Below are positions 16,173-22,800 of a DNA stretch of 39,641 nucleotides, piece by piece. The DNA is taken from positions 1 through 39,641 of IMG/VR virus record IMGVR_UViG_3300022204_000009, one strand, 5' to 3'. The position numbers and the translations under genes are program-made. This stretch comes from a virus. Below the pieces are notes generated by a model that saw only the letters and a list, made by a program, of their open reading frames with translations, made no database searches and was not told where the DNA came from. The stretch's first letter is position 1; the number at the start of each line of letters is the position of its first letter.

Positions 16173-17123
16173 ATGTCTGATATTCAAGTAGCGGATAACC
16201 GGATCTACGTCAAAGATGAAGTCACGTATGGAACGGATAGCGTACCCACCGCAACCGATCGTGTTCGCACCAGTGACCTCGACATCGTGCCTTACGATGG
16301 CCCTCGTATCGAAAAAGCGTATGACGGTGACGGCGGTCGTGATCGTAACAGCATCAACACTGGCCCGTTTACATCATTGACCTGCAAAGTAGATTTCGCA
16401 GGCTCTGGCACTAAGGATATTGAGCCGACTTATGCGCCTTTATTGCGTAGCTGTGGTGTGGGTGTTGTTGAAACCGCGCTTACTAATACAACGATTACAA
16501 CTGGCACGGGCGTGATTACCGACAGCTCATCAATTTATTTTGTTGAAGATCTCGCTGGTGAGCTGGAAAAATCAGCACTACTCGGTGTGCGCGGCACAGC
16601 AGGGCTGGACATTAGTCGCGGTGCCGTTCCGCAATGGGATTTCAGCTTACTGGGTACATACAACCAGCCCAGCCACATTGCCTCCACGTTAGCCGGTGCG
16701 CCTGCTGCACAGCTCAAAGGCATCCCGGTCACTAATGCCAACACCGCCACGGTCACGCTCGACGGCGCAACGGTTTGCCTGGAGTCGCTCAAGTTCGACA
16801 ACATGGGTTACACCACTGACTTTGTTAACGGGCCAAACTGTTTAGAGGTTAAGTCGTCCCCGACACAAATCAAAGGCACCATCGTCATCAAAGACGAAGG
16901 TTATGCAACGAAAAATTTCGTGGCCTTAGCGGAGTCACACGGAGGGGTAACGGAAGTCGCGCTGGCGGTAACGCACGGCACGGTGACTGGAAATATTCTC
17001 AGCGCCTCGGTTGCGACTATCCAGATCACCGACATCAAGCGCACCAGCCTCAACGGTATCAAAGGCTGGACCATGACCTTCGGCCTGACCAGCAACGCGC
17101 CACTGGTTATCGTACAAACTTAA
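16173..17123 (+). CDS. Major tail tube protein
   Basis: A 316-residue protein of the phage tail tube type: NRIYVKDEVTYGTDSVPTATDRVRTSDLDI, a central beta domain (GLDISRGAVPQWDFSLLGTY) and a C-terminal half ending IKGWTMTFGLTSNAPLVIV. Placement directly before the tail assembly chaperones and tape measure fits the polymer that forms the tail tube. A good AGGAG site precedes ATG 16173. Confidence 0.85.
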   Translation: MSDIQVADNRIYVKDEVTYGTDSVPTATDRVRTSDLDIVPYDGPRIEKAYDGDGGRDRNSINTGPFTSLTCKVDFAGSGTKDIEPTYAPLLRSCGVGVVETALTNTTITTGTGVITDSSSIYFVEDLAGELEKSALLGVRGTAGLDISRGAVPQWDFSLLGTYNQPSHIASTLAGAPAAQLKGIPVTNANTATVTLDGATVCLESLKFDNMGYTTDFVNGPNCLEVKSSPTQIKGTIVIKDEGYATKNFVALAESHGGVTEVALAVTHGTVTGNILSASVATIQITDIKRTSLNGIKGWTMTFGLTSNAPLVIVQT

Positions 17124-17989: not shown

Positions 17990-18339
17990 CGGCAAAGGAA
18001 CCAGTAGATGAAGAGGAAAAAAGGGAACGTGAGTCCGCAGCTTTGCGGCTTATGAATTTCACGGAAGAACAAATTAAAGAAGAGCTGGCTCAAGAAGAAG
18101 GCGGGCCAGATAAAGACTGTGAAATATGGCCTGAGCATGTTGAGGCGCTGGATTTGTTTCTCAGCGTGCAGCGGCGATGGGTGTATCCAGCTATGTCGAG
18201 CCGCCCGGTTGGGCTGGATCCGGCATGGGTAACACTCAAGGCTGAACTGATGTTTCCTGAGAAACAAAATCGGCTTGAGGTTATTAACCAGGTAGAGCTG
18301 ATAGAGAGAGGTGCGCTCGGTGCATGGCCAAAGAGTTAA
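17537..18339 (+). CDS. Tail assembly chaperone, frameshifted fusion (gpGT-like)
   Basis: A -1 shift at A AAA AAA (17965-17971) joins the short chaperone (145 codons) to an overlapping frame that runs from 17971 to the stop at 18337-18339, about 267 residues in all. The second part reads KIGSYWVTAKEPVDEEE, FTEEQIKEELAQEEGG, then EALDLFLSVQRRWVYPAMSSRPVGLD and ends GAWPKS. There is no stop in the -1 frame between slip site and end. Length and order match the lambda G/GT plan. The downstream part has its own TTG at 18043 but no convincing ribosome site. Confidence 0.85.
17945..18007 (+). promoter_or_regulatory. -1 programmed ribosomal frameshift signal
   Basis: Three parts in the right order: an AAGGAGG internal Shine-Dalgarno (17945-17951), 13 bases later a perfect A AAA AAA slippery heptamer in frame (17965-17971), and after a 7-base spacer a stem of CTACTGG (17979-17985) with CCAGTAG (18001-18007) and 15-base loop. 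All three match the dnaX-type arrangement. Confidence 0.88.
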
Positions 18340-18355
18340 GGTGTAATATTTAAAC

Positions 18356-18385
18356 TTGACATTCGGTAGCCGGATGGATTATTGT
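18356..18385 (+). promoter_or_regulatory. Candidate sigma-70 promoter for HNH insert
   Basis: TTGACA (18356-18361), an 18-base spacer and TATTGT (18380-18385). The transcript would begin near 18392, at the first stem of the structured RNA, and lead into the unknown ORF and HNH nuclease. Confidence 0.55.
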
Positions 18386-18391
18386 TTCTCT

Positions 18392-18585
18392 GCACTAGCA
18401 AAATCTAGTGCCGGAATTGGTCTTCCGTTTGGTCAGAGAGCAGGGCTCTCATTCGATGAGCTTTTTTTGTGCCTGTAGAAATATGGCAGGCTGTGCGGGG
18501 CTTCCTTCGGGAAGGCCGATCCTCTGACCGGTAAGACCAACCCCGTGCAGTCTGCCACCCTATTGATTGGTCTCGATGGTGGCAG
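18392..18585 (+). ncRNA. Candidate structured RNA upstream of HNH operon
   Basis: No gene is evident here, but pairing is dense. Arms: GCACTAG (18392-18398) with CTAGTGC (18405-18411); TTGGTCTT (18417-18424) with AAGACCAA (18533-18540); GGTCAGAG (18431-18438) with CTCTGACC (18522-18529); CTTCC-TTCG-GGAAG (18501-18514); GGCAGGCTGTGCGGGG (18485-18500) with CCCCGTGCAGTCTGCC (18541-18556, three G-T pairs); CTGCCACC (18552-18559) with GGTGGCAG (18578-18585). The 16-pair stem crosses the two long-range stems, so the RNA forms a pseudoknot or switches. A second TTGGTCT (18567-18573) competes for AGACCAA. No known riboswitch, ribozyme or group I/II intron core was recognised. Confidence 0.55.
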
Positions 18586-18613
18586 TTCTTGAACATATTC
18601 AGAGGACGCTACT

Positions 18614-18997
18614 ATGTCGGCACAAGTAATAAAACTAAAAGAGTATTCACCCGGTATCCAGCAAGCCACTATTAAGCTTGAGTGGCAGGTGTCCAGTGAT
18701 GCACCTAAAACAGTCGATGATTTATATTTCACGAAGCGCGAACCAAACGGTTGTATCAATTGGTGGGCTGTAACTAAGCCTAGCAATTATTATAGTGCGA
18801 ACTATATGGTAGGAAGGGCGCATGCGTTTGATGTAATTGAGTTAATGTTTAATCCAAAAGCAAAAAACTTAAATGATGGGCTGCTTAGTAATATCGCTAT
18901 AAACATGGCTGAAAACCACAAAACAGACGATGGTGTGATGCGTGGTTTCTTTAGTGCGTTCAGTGAGTTATTGCTAAATGGGAAAGTAGTGCGTTGA
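18614..18997 (+). CDS. Hypothetical protein in HNH insert
   Basis: A 127-residue protein starting ATG 18614 behind AGAGGA, right after the structured RNA. Visible features: IKLEWQVSSDAPKTVDDLYFTKRE, a WW pair in CINWWAVTKP, the helical YMVGRAHAFDVIELM, and a C-terminal GVMRGFFSAFSELLL. Some phage proteins share the WW...GR.YA and GFF.A..E pattern, but the function is unknown. Its stop overlaps the TTG start of the HNH gene (TTGA). Confidence 0.7.
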   Translation: MSAQVIKLKEYSPGIQQATIKLEWQVSSDAPKTVDDLYFTKREPNGCINWWAVTKPSNYYSANYMVGRAHAFDVIELMFNPKAKNLNDGLLSNIAINMAENHKTDDGVMRGFFSAFSELLLNGKVVR

Positions 18998-19782
18998 GTA
19001 GCGCAATTGATATTACTGGACAGCGGTTTGGGAAATTACTAGTAGTTAAACGGGTTGAAAACGATAGTAGTGGTTTCGCTATGTGGTTGTGTCACTGTGA
19101 TTGCGGTAACTCGAAAGTCATCCGTGGTGTTTCTTTGAGAAACGGCAATACAAAAGGTTGTGGCTGTATTGCTGCGCCCGATCATACGGGTAAGCGATTT
19201 GGTGGATTGGTGGTTTTAAAAAAGTTAGCCAATAAAAAGTCGCATTCTAATTGGTTATGCAAGTGCGACTGTGGCGCCACAACTAAGGTTACGAATACTC
19301 GCTTGGTTAGTGGTGCCACGAAATCATGCGGTTGCGGCAGAAAGTCTTTGGATGGGCTAAGCACGTCCAGTCCTCGTGAATACCGAAGCTGGCGAGCGAT
19401 GCTTGCGAGGTGCAATAACCCGGAAACAAGACATTACGAGCATTATGGTGGTAGGGGAATAAAAGTTTGTGATCGCTGGTTGGATTTCACGTTGTTTCTG
19501 AAAGATATGGGACGCAACCCCGGTAGGTTTCACACGCTTGATAAACAGGATAATAATGGTAATTACGAACCGGGTAACTGTGCGTGGGTAGATAAGAAAG
19601 CCCAGGCAAGAAATACACGGCGTAACTTTATTCTTTCATATAAAGGTAAAAAGAAGTGCCTTGCTGAATGGTGTGAGTTGCTAGGTTTAAAATATCACAC
19701 TGTATATTGTCGATTGCGTAATGGTTGGTCGGTGCAGTCGGCACTTGAAGAACCGAAAAAAGTAAACCAGTTTTCAGAATAA
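18994..19782 (+). CDS. HNH homing endonuclease with duplicated zinc ribbon
   Basis: A 262-residue protein starting TTG 18994, overlapping the previous stop. Two tandem AP2-like/zinc-ribbon units open it: TGQRFGKLLVVKRV...LCHCDCGNSKV...GCGC (about 6-57) and TGKRFGGLVVLKKL...LCKCDCGATTKV...SCGCG (about 63-112). The HNH domain follows (YRSWRAMLARCNNPETRHYEHYGGRGIKVCDRW, LDKQDNNGNYEPGNCAW), then a NUMOD-like HTH (AEWCELLGLKYHTVYCRLRNGWSV). It is probably a free-standing homing enzyme that brought the segment 18340-19810 between chaperone and tape measure genes. Confidence 0.9.
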   Translation: MSSAIDITGQRFGKLLVVKRVENDSSGFAMWLCHCDCGNSKVIRGVSLRNGNTKGCGCIAAPDHTGKRFGGLVVLKKLANKKSHSNWLCKCDCGATTKVTNTRLVSGATKSCGCGRKSLDGLSTSSPREYRSWRAMLARCNNPETRHYEHYGGRGIKVCDRWLDFTLFLKDMGRNPGRFHTLDKQDNNGNYEPGNCAWVDKKAQARNTRRNFILSYKGKKKCLAEWCELLGLKYHTVYCRLRNGWSVQSALEEPKKVNQFSE

Positions 19783-19808
19783 AAACAAATTATTTTTAAT
19801 AAACAAAA

Positions 19809-19832
19809 GCTCACTTCGGTGGGCTTTTTTAT
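19809..19832 (+). terminator. Intrinsic terminator with TTCG loop
   Basis: AGCTCAC, loop TTCG and GTGGGCT followed by a run of T. It ends the HNH insert just before the tape measure gene. Confidence 0.85.
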
Positions 19833-19845
19833 TGGCGTCGATAAA

Positions 19846-22800
19846 ATGGCTCAGACATATAAAACGGGAATAATCCTGACCGGGTCAGCCGATGGAGCGA
19901 TCAGAGCGGTCAAATTAACGGACGAGCAACTTAAAAAATTAAACTCGACCGAAAAGAAAGGGCACGATACTCAGAAAAAAACCCGCGCGGAAACTAAAAA
20001 AACCAGTCAGTCGATGGGTGATTACGCGGGCAAACTAGGCCTGGTTACGTCTGCAGCTTCTATATTAACCGCCGCGTTGGGCGGGTTGTCTATAGCGAAT
20101 ACCGTGCGCGAAACAGTGGCTTTAACGCGGGAGACCAACGCCTGGGCGGCGGCGGTAGGTGTGACTACGCAGGAATTGCGGGCTTCGGAATATGCGGCCC
20201 AGTCTTTGGGGTTGTCTCAAGGCAAGATCGCGGACATTTATAAAGATACGGCTGAAAAAATTTCTGACGCTTATATCAATGGCGGAGGTGAAGCGGTTGA
20301 GGCTTTGCGCAATATCAATCTTACCGCTGCGGATCTCAATAGTTTGTCTCCTGATCAGCAACTTATGGCTATTGCTAACGGCCTGGATTCTATTGGTGAT
20401 CACAACAACAAAATCCAGATTTTGGAATCGCTTGCTTCTGATGCCAGCCTGTTAATCCCTTTACTGGAAAACTCCGGTGAAAAATTTAAACAATTAAAAC
20501 AGGAAGCGATTGATTCTGGCAGGGCCATGTCGAATATCGACGCGGCTGTTGTCACCTTGCTCGATGTTGAATTTCGTAAATTGTCAGCTTCATCTGACGG
20601 CTTTGGTAATAGCCTCACCGCAGGTTTAGCGCCTGCTATTTATGGTGTGACCAAAGAAATTAATACACTGACATTGGGCTGGGGTAGCGCCAGCGAGATA
20701 ACTGCGAAAGCGATAGATATTACCGTTACGGGGTTGGGTTTTGTGCTCGATGCAGGGCATGATGTTTTGACCACTGTGAAGCTGATAGAAATCGGTTGGC
20801 TGCATGTGGGTAATGTTGGCGTGTCAGCGTTTATTGGAATGGGTAATGTCGGCGTTGATTTTGTTAATAACTTCCTGCTTCCGTTTCGTGAAACACTGGG
20901 GTCAATTACTGAAGGCTGGGGGTATCTGCTTCAGTTAGCGGGTGACTTTACGGGTAACACCGCCTGGCAGGAAGCTGGCGAATTTATGCTGGGTTACAGC
21001 AAGGCTATTAAAGAAACCCGTTTTGAGATGGCGGATTTTATTGGTCTGCAAAAAGATTTGCAGGGTCAAATCGCAAAGTCCAATGATGAGCTGCTGGCAA
21101 TGCTCAACGCCAAAGCGCCGTCAGATGAAATAAAAAAATGGCTGGCTGAGCAACGCGCAGAAGTTGAAAGACTGGCAGCAGCGAACGTGGCTGCGGCTGA
21201 AGCACGAAAATTGCTGACTGATGAAGAAAAAAAGGCAGCGGAGTCCTCTAAAGAATTAAGAATAGCGGCTGATGCGACCGCGCAAGTTTATAAAGACACA
21301 GCATCATCCATTCGTAATTCATTCAGCGGTGCGTTTCGTGACATTCTTGACGATCAAAATACTTTTGTTGATCGTATGTTTGATTCAATTAAAAACCTGT
21401 TTGCTGATATAGCAACATTACAACTGACTAAACCGTTCATCATTCCATTTACAGCGGGTATAGCAGCATCAACCGGCGCTAACGCTGAAGAACAGTTAGC
21501 GGCTGTCAGCGGAATGGGCGGCACCGCCGCCGACACTAAAGGCGTAATGGCTGATGTCGGTGAATACATTGGCGCAGGCATGGTTGGTTACATGGCTGGT
21601 GGTATGGCCGCGAAAATGTTTGATGTGGCGAACCCTGGCATGGCGCAAAACCTATCGGGCATTGGTGCCATGATCGGTCTGTCGATGGGTAATCCATTTA
21701 TTAGCGCTATCGCCGGTTTTGTTGCAGGTTCATTATTCAAAGGCGACTGGGTTACTGATGCTGAAAAATTAAACCTTTATTACACGCGTGGTGCGGGTGT
21801 TTCGGGTAATCGCGAAATCAGCCAAAGTCGTGATGGTGGTGCTTTTAATTCAGACGACAGCCAGACTATTATTCGTACACTGGATGCGGCTTTTACTCAG
21901 CGCCTGTCGCTAACCTTTGGCCAGTTTGAGGACAGCCTGGTCAATCAGCTTCATTTGTTGAACATCGGCAATCTTAATGCGTTGATGGATTTTACTTCGT
22001 CAGTGGCGCTGGATATTACCGGTCTCAATTCTGAGCAGGTCAATGACGTTATTACGCAATGGGCGGGTAATGTCTCTGTTGAAATGGCAGCGGCGTTATT
22101 GCCGGGGCTGGATGCTTTCAGGCGTGTAGGCGAGACAGGTGTAGAGACGATTGATCGACTTACTCAATCACTAGGTTTGATGTACAGTTTTGGTCGCAAT
22201 CTTGATATTACTATTGCGAGTTTGACGGCGGGCAATAATGCTGCAGCTCAGTTTGGTATTCAGATTCAATATGCCACGGCGGATATTGTTGCGACCGCGA
22301 ATCAGTTGGCGAATACGCAGGACATGCAGACACGCATCGAGCTGGAACAGCAATATGCTGACCAGGTGCTGGCGCGTTATAAATTAGAGCAGGACATGCT
22401 TACTGCCCTGCAGGCAAGCGTGGTTTCGATCAGCAACGACATCTCTGGTTTGCGCGCGACTATTGGTGGTGATATCGCCAGCATTACCGGCGGCTTTGCA
22501 CCGCGTAGTGCTTCGTCTATTGCTTCTGATTTAGCAGGTATCTCTGGTGGTAGTGCGCCTGATTTGACCCGGTACATTAACTTAACAGGCAAACTGGATA
22601 CGGTTGGAGCGCAGAGTACAGCAATGCTGGCTTTGATTAATGAAAAAAACAGTGCGAAGAATGAACTGGAAATAGCGAAAGCTGATTATGAAATTGATTT
22701 ACAGGGCCAGATTGATGATTTAGTTTCAAAAATGACCAGTGCGTCATTTGATGATGCGGTAAATGGGTCGGTTGATAGGTGGTACGCTGAAACTCTATCG

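Follow-up and report, generated by a model that had tools for sequence, protein, structure and literature searches.

A C4-type antisense RNA ahead of an HNH endonuclease gene among the tail genes of a temperate phage

A stretch of about 195 bases, seemingly non-coding and lying before an HNH endonuclease gene in viral DNA, raises the question of which RNA it encodes and what that RNA controls. The DNA that was analysed, here called the window, is the whole 39,641-nucleotide (39.6 kb) stretch of IMG/VR record IMGVR_UViG_3300022204_000009. It carries genes for a terminase, a portal protein, a major head protein, tail proteins, an integrase and an endolysin as well as a repressor-like gene, a gene content that marks it as a tailed temperate phage or as a prophage. 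The cassette of interest (18356 to 19828, Table 1) is located between a tail gene (DUF1799, phrog_680) and a long gene whose size and place suggest the tape measure gene. The GTG listed as the start of this putative tape measure ORF falls inside the terminator-like hairpin (window 19819-19846), and translation more likely begins at the ATG at 19846.

C4 antisense RNA is a phage control RNA that was first found in phage P1. The initial annotation had described the region as a possible new structured RNA for which no known class was recognised, but comparison with Rfam placed it in this known family. The C4 model (RF01695) matched 18479-18562 over model positions 1-87 with 65.6 bits, where 45 is the gathering score, and P1 C4 scored 68.8 bits with the same model in the same kind of search. 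C4 alone reached its gathering score in the window, and within 18300-18640 only C4, isrK and c4-a1b1 matched at E values up to 1. Neither a tRNA nor a tmRNA was found in the window. Because the C4 match exceeds the gathering score, a new RNA class was rejected; a match to a well-known RNA was among the outcomes that the initial annotation had named as refuting its proposal. Both C4 and c4-a1b1 are listed in a 2010 survey of structured RNAs (PMC2864571). The RNA itself is ordinary and belongs to an already-known family, and the unusual part is the genes under its apparent control.

The long stems that first drew attention to the region are present and can be assigned to parts of a C4 locus. The 16-pair stem (18485-18500/18541-18556) consists of 13 Watson-Crick and 3 G-U pairs and is the C4 closing stem; the two 8-base complements that cross it are exact and correspond to the b1/b' and a1/a' pairings; and the second copy of TTGGTCT is target a2. 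In the predicted fold of 18485-18559 the long closing stem encloses two inner hairpins, and the a' and b' loops are complementary to a2, before the next gene, and to b2, the Shine-Dalgarno region of that gene. By analogy with the annotated P1 C4, the mature RNA is expected to span approximately 18485-18559. The sequence at 18485, the expected cleavage site, is GGC rather than the usual GGW; the study that gives GGW as the RNase P cleavage motif also has GGC at two of its RNAs (PMC5320573).

The segment ahead of C4 resembles the leaders that accompany this RNA elsewhere. The isrK model (RF01394) matched 18392-18468 over its full length with 46.1 bits (E 5e-9), below the gathering score of 50 and so unlike formal isrK members, and the c4-a1b1 model (RF03163) matched 18379-18431, also over its full length, with 39.0 bits (E 1.4e-8) against a gathering score of 46.7. 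By these matches the leader is closely related to isrK and c4-a1b1, the RNAs known to accompany C4, short of formal isrK membership.

Table 1. Features of the C4 cassette in window coordinates.
Feature	Position	Strand	Basis and remarks
Candidate promoter, TTGACA-18-TATTGT	18356..18385	+	10/12 consensus positions
isrK/c4-a1b1-like leader RNA with 3' hairpin and T run (candidate terminator)	18392..18468	+	RF01394/RF03163 matches, predicted fold
Target a1, TTGGTCTT	18417..18424	+	Complement of a' (18533-18540); -9.9 kcal/mol
Target b1, GGTCAGAG	18431..18438	+	Complement of CTCTGACC (18522-18529); -14.0 kcal/mol
C4 antisense RNA	18479..18562	+	RF01695, 65.6 bits; predicted structure; P1 reference
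Antisense loop b', TCCTCTGACC	18520..18529	+	Complementarity, pairing energies
Antisense loop a', AAGACCAA	18533..18540	+	Complementarity, pairing energies
Target a2, TTGGTCT	18567..18573	+	Pairs with a', -9.2 kcal/mol
Hairpin covering the Shine-Dalgarno region and the first part of the ATG	18576..18615	+	Predicted fold
Target b2, TCAGAGGA, Shine-Dalgarno region of ORF127	18599..18606	+	Pairs with b', -13.0 kcal/mol
ORF127, first gene of the unit	18614..18997	+	ORF list; weak phrog_11753 match, E 0.018
HNH endonuclease, start TTG	18994..19782	+	phrog_374, E 4.8e-84; aligned with relatives
Candidate cassette terminator, 10-pair hairpin, TTCG loop, T run	19805..19828	+	Predicted fold, z -5.05

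Folding was assessed by prediction. The predicted fold of 18392-18585 was more stable than all 200 shuffled sequences (z -4.57), as was that of the C4 part alone, 18485-18559 (z -5.23; 0/200). C4 in isolation is predicted to take the three-stem C4 form. In the predicted fold of 18392-18585, a1 and b1 are paired to a' and b'; in the lowest-energy fold of 18392-18650, C4 is folded, the a1/b1 pairing is open and the ribosome site of ORF127 is closed in a hairpin. The region had been interpreted as a pseudoknot or a switch. The pairings are mutually exclusive, which fits a switch or pairing in trans, and the pseudoknot can be set aside. Cofolding the whole C4 with its target gave no gain over the separate folds (-66.6 vs -67.2 kcal/mol), and single loop-target pairings, at -9 to -14 kcal/mol each, were favourable only when loop was set against target. 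Antisense pairing by loop contact is therefore plausible, but it is not proven by energy.

A promoter-like -35/-10 pair had also been reported just upstream, and the motif is indeed present. A scan found 3 promoter-like sites against a mean of 3.2 in shuffled sequence, so the candidate promoter is not evidence when taken alone. Its placement lends it support, as the isrK match begins 7 bases further on, and transcription is expected to start near 18392, the first position of that match. Neither the candidate terminator of the leader nor that at 19805-19828 was picked up by the pattern scan.

We compared the locus with C4 loci from whole genomes. C4 was carried by 24 of the 369 genomes in a class-wide sample, by 72/398 and 54/399 genomes in samples of two orders, and by 1/24 and 1/4 genomes in two further order-level searches made with other centres. 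The C4 of the window is the sole match in its own genome, which in turn is the sole C4 carrier among 54 genomes of its order. Several other genomes (G325, G417, G312, G984 and G1009 among them) hold up to at least 10 copies, mostly before short uncharacterised ORFs. For the analysis of individual loci, 51 of the 55 listed matches of the class-wide sample were used, three on contig G312:C9 and one on G325:C163 being left out, and the two order samples (398 and 399 genomes) contributed 58 new loci, a part of their listed matches.

Own and foreign flanks were compared across 110 loci, among them P1, by the longest exact complement that each offers to the C4 loop region, and 5000 permutations were run. 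Downstream, own flanks gave a mean of 7.64 bases and foreign flanks 5.66; upstream, the means were 7.93 and 5.93, and on neither side was any of the 5000 permutations as good. Own complements of at least 7 bases were present downstream in 88/110 loci and upstream in 108/110. Pairing as long as that of the window's loops occurred in none of the 109 foreign downstream flanks and in 2 of the 109 foreign upstream flanks. Loops and target sites thus co-vary from locus to locus. No good downstream match for the C4 loops was found at some loci, L113-L117 and L128-L130 among others. At L113, L115 and L122 (G417) the upstream site matches and no downstream site does, as if the RNA paired elsewhere.

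Covariation among homologues, the check proposed with the initial annotation, was found: in the consensus C4 fold, built from 26 of the then 52 loci, 21 of 27 pairs showed two-sided changes. That the region encodes a real structured RNA was borne out by a stability beyond all shuffles, by these compensatory changes and by pairing with the flanks beyond that of any permutation.

The genes behind C4 differ in part from the HNH operon that had been announced there. An HNH gene is present, but it is second; the first gene is ORF127, an orphan frame of 127 codons. The HNH start overlaps the stop codon of ORF127 by 4 bases (TTGA, 18994-18997), and alignment with its relatives showed that the gene is open and keeps their conserved columns; its product is a normal phrog_374 member. 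For ORF127, no usable relative was found in Pfam, NCBIfam, the phage and plasmid collections, viral contigs or genome contigs. Membership of ORF127 in a group of short phage proteins sharing a W-V-GNY-GR pattern was considered and dropped, as no search supported it. Because ORF127 lacks a recognisable relative, the frame may be spurious or may not code for protein. This orphan state, which held in every collection searched, would suit a decayed locus in which the RNA still folds, ORF127 is no gene and nothing is controlled any more. We consider such a remnant improbable, since neither the four target copies nor the two loops are damaged, the HNH gene remains open with its conserved columns and the 4-base overlap of the two genes has been kept.

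The cassette genes have G+C contents of 0.40 and 0.44, against 0.505 and 0.482 for the flanking tail genes, as would be expected from composition for a cassette that was added late. No cassette-free site was found, relatives of ORF127 and of the flanking tail proteins being absent outside the own genome; this applies both to the 98-residue product of the tail gene ahead of the RNA and to the tail protein encoded at 16173-17123. The phage collection held no DNA similar to 18300-19830.

The C4 switch is best known for controlling phage antirepressors. The P1 c4-icd-ant locus (AF234172) has the same order as the window, namely a1, b1, C4, a2, b2 and then two genes (icd and ant1 in P1), and icd and ant1 likewise overlap by 4 bases (48688-48691). 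The two loci differ in loop sequences, in setting, the P1 unit lying in the immunity region and that of the window among tail genes, and in the controlled genes, which are icd and ant in P1 and apparently ORF127 and HNH here. Searches of Pfam and phrog identified no antirepressor among the two downstream genes. The gene overlap of a P1-type operon is therefore found without its antirepressor, and the role of C4 in P1 is not simply transferable to the window.

Work on P1 and on Acinetobacter baumannii describes how such an RNA operates. Full repression of ant in P1 requires C4 (PMC8198154, 2021), and according to the 2016 A. baumannii study RNase P cleaves C4, whose loops mask the ribosome site and provide specificity (PMC5320573). 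The Gifsy-1 isrK-orf45-anrP locus, as described in PMC4825925, resembles the window in that a terminated leader RNA is complementary to a processed RNA behind it. According to that account the Gifsy-1 RNA can adopt two folds, its ribosome site is masked by a helix and orf45 is coupled to anrP, and the window has predicted counterparts in its alternative folds, hidden ribosome site and a first ORF that is probably coupled to the next gene. In Gifsy-1, however, the short RNA is an activator and coupling extends to an antirepressor gene, whereas in the window it would extend to the gene for an HNH endonuclease. The CI RNA of P4 with seqA and seqC, described in the same source, is likewise an antisense RNA that is released by processing and has complementary sites to either side of it, but it causes early termination of transcription, unlike the action proposed for the C4 of the window; this comparison concerns function and the layout of the sites (PMC4825925).

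We conclude, with a probability of about 90%, that the locus is a temperate-phage C4 control module of the same kind as the P1/P7 c4 locus and the Gifsy-1 isrK locus. Its most likely action, by analogy, is that the prophage C4 switch blocks translation of ORF127 and, through coupling, that of the HNH gene. Processing, repression, coupling and the timing of expression are modelled here on P1 and Gifsy. A single promoter would yield the isrK-like leader RNA with a1 and b1, most of which would be terminated, and read-through would supply C4, to be excised from the transcript. C4 would then display its two short antisense loops, which could pair in trans with a2 and b2. Pairing at b2, the Shine-Dalgarno sequence, would block translation of ORF127, and the HNH frame, which starts inside the ORF127 stop codon, would then remain untranslated too. 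The upstream copies a1 and b1 would compete for the same loops, so that the long transcript could fold in either of two ways. ORF127 and HNH would stay off in a lysogen, where C4 is already at hand, and could be expressed when the phage has just entered a cell that lacks it.

C4 might instead act chiefly in trans, giving immunity against related phages or controlling another transcript, with ORF127 and HNH as a by-standing read-out. P1 C4 acts in P1/P7 heteroimmunity (PMC12197685), and for the C4-like RNAs of A. baumannii other targets have been proposed (PMC5320573). Matching targets are nevertheless present in cis at the right places, and this C4 is without a second copy in its genome; we therefore hold an action chiefly in trans to be unlikely, though with an appreciable chance of being correct.

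The frequency with which C4 and HNH genes occur together bears on the claim that the RNA belongs to an HNH-linked class. Family searches were made with 82 of the 99 extracted downstream ORFs, 17 short or doubtful ones having been omitted by hand. HNH families matched 2 of these 82 proteins, and antirepressors formed the largest named group. Primase and helicase families were also seen among proteins after C4, among the matches listed, and are reminiscent of satellite elements; at L003:1833-3086 a long ORF after C4 looks primase-like by eye. Of the 57 families of downstream proteins the first 25 were listed; HNH genes were therefore counted by a profile search of all ORFs of at least 40 residues in the 110 loci, three of which have less than 900 bases downstream. 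This profile was built from the window HNH, the HNH of locus L017 and nine viral relatives, and covers proteins like its members rather than every HNH type. HNH genes of this family adjoined C4 in 2/110 loci, the window and L017, which are both found by construction, and no third was detected. Conversely, no C4 match occurred in the 78 viral records with related HNH genes, many of which are fragments. The two counts together indicate that the C4-HNH link is real but rare. No literature joining C4 antisense RNA with HNH was found among open-licence papers, the looser searches covering titles and the starts of abstracts.

A new structured-RNA class tied to HNH homing genes, of a HEARO-like or intron-like mobile kind, has next to no probability. 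Such a class would account for the position before an HNH gene and for the long crossing stems; it is refuted by the C4 match above gathering score together with the layout of a2 and b2, and C4 occurs without this HNH family in 108/110 loci as well as being missing from the 78 HNH records. The Rfam check for HEARO and group I introns gave no match in the window at the gathering threshold. The apparent tie to HNH reflects the genes that happen to lie downstream.

The second locus, L017 in the G270 prophage, shares with the C4 control module of the window the order C4, first ORF and HNH with a 4-base overlap (HNH at L017:253-1002 on the minus strand vs 18994-19782 in the window). The two HNH proteins are 28% identical, the first ORFs are unrelated by sequence search, and the L017 unit is located beside an integrase gene rather than among tail genes. 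The window and L017 prophages belong to bacteria of different families. This distant similarity may point to C4 and HNH having been joined more than once.

The genes that follow C4 modules are more varied than antirepressors alone, and in at least two prophages, from bacteria of different families, an HNH endonuclease gene overlaps a C4-targeted ORF; the RNA need not be pursued as a new class. We offer tentatively, as a doubtful reading, that a C4 switch was joined to a homing-type HNH cassette in the tail genes to give an RNA-gated endonuclease that detects whether the cell already harbours its own prophage. If so, the unit would be silent where a matching C4 is already made and turned on when the phage enters a C4-free cell. 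If the control is real, the locus would show a phage immunity RNA gating an endonuclease gene.
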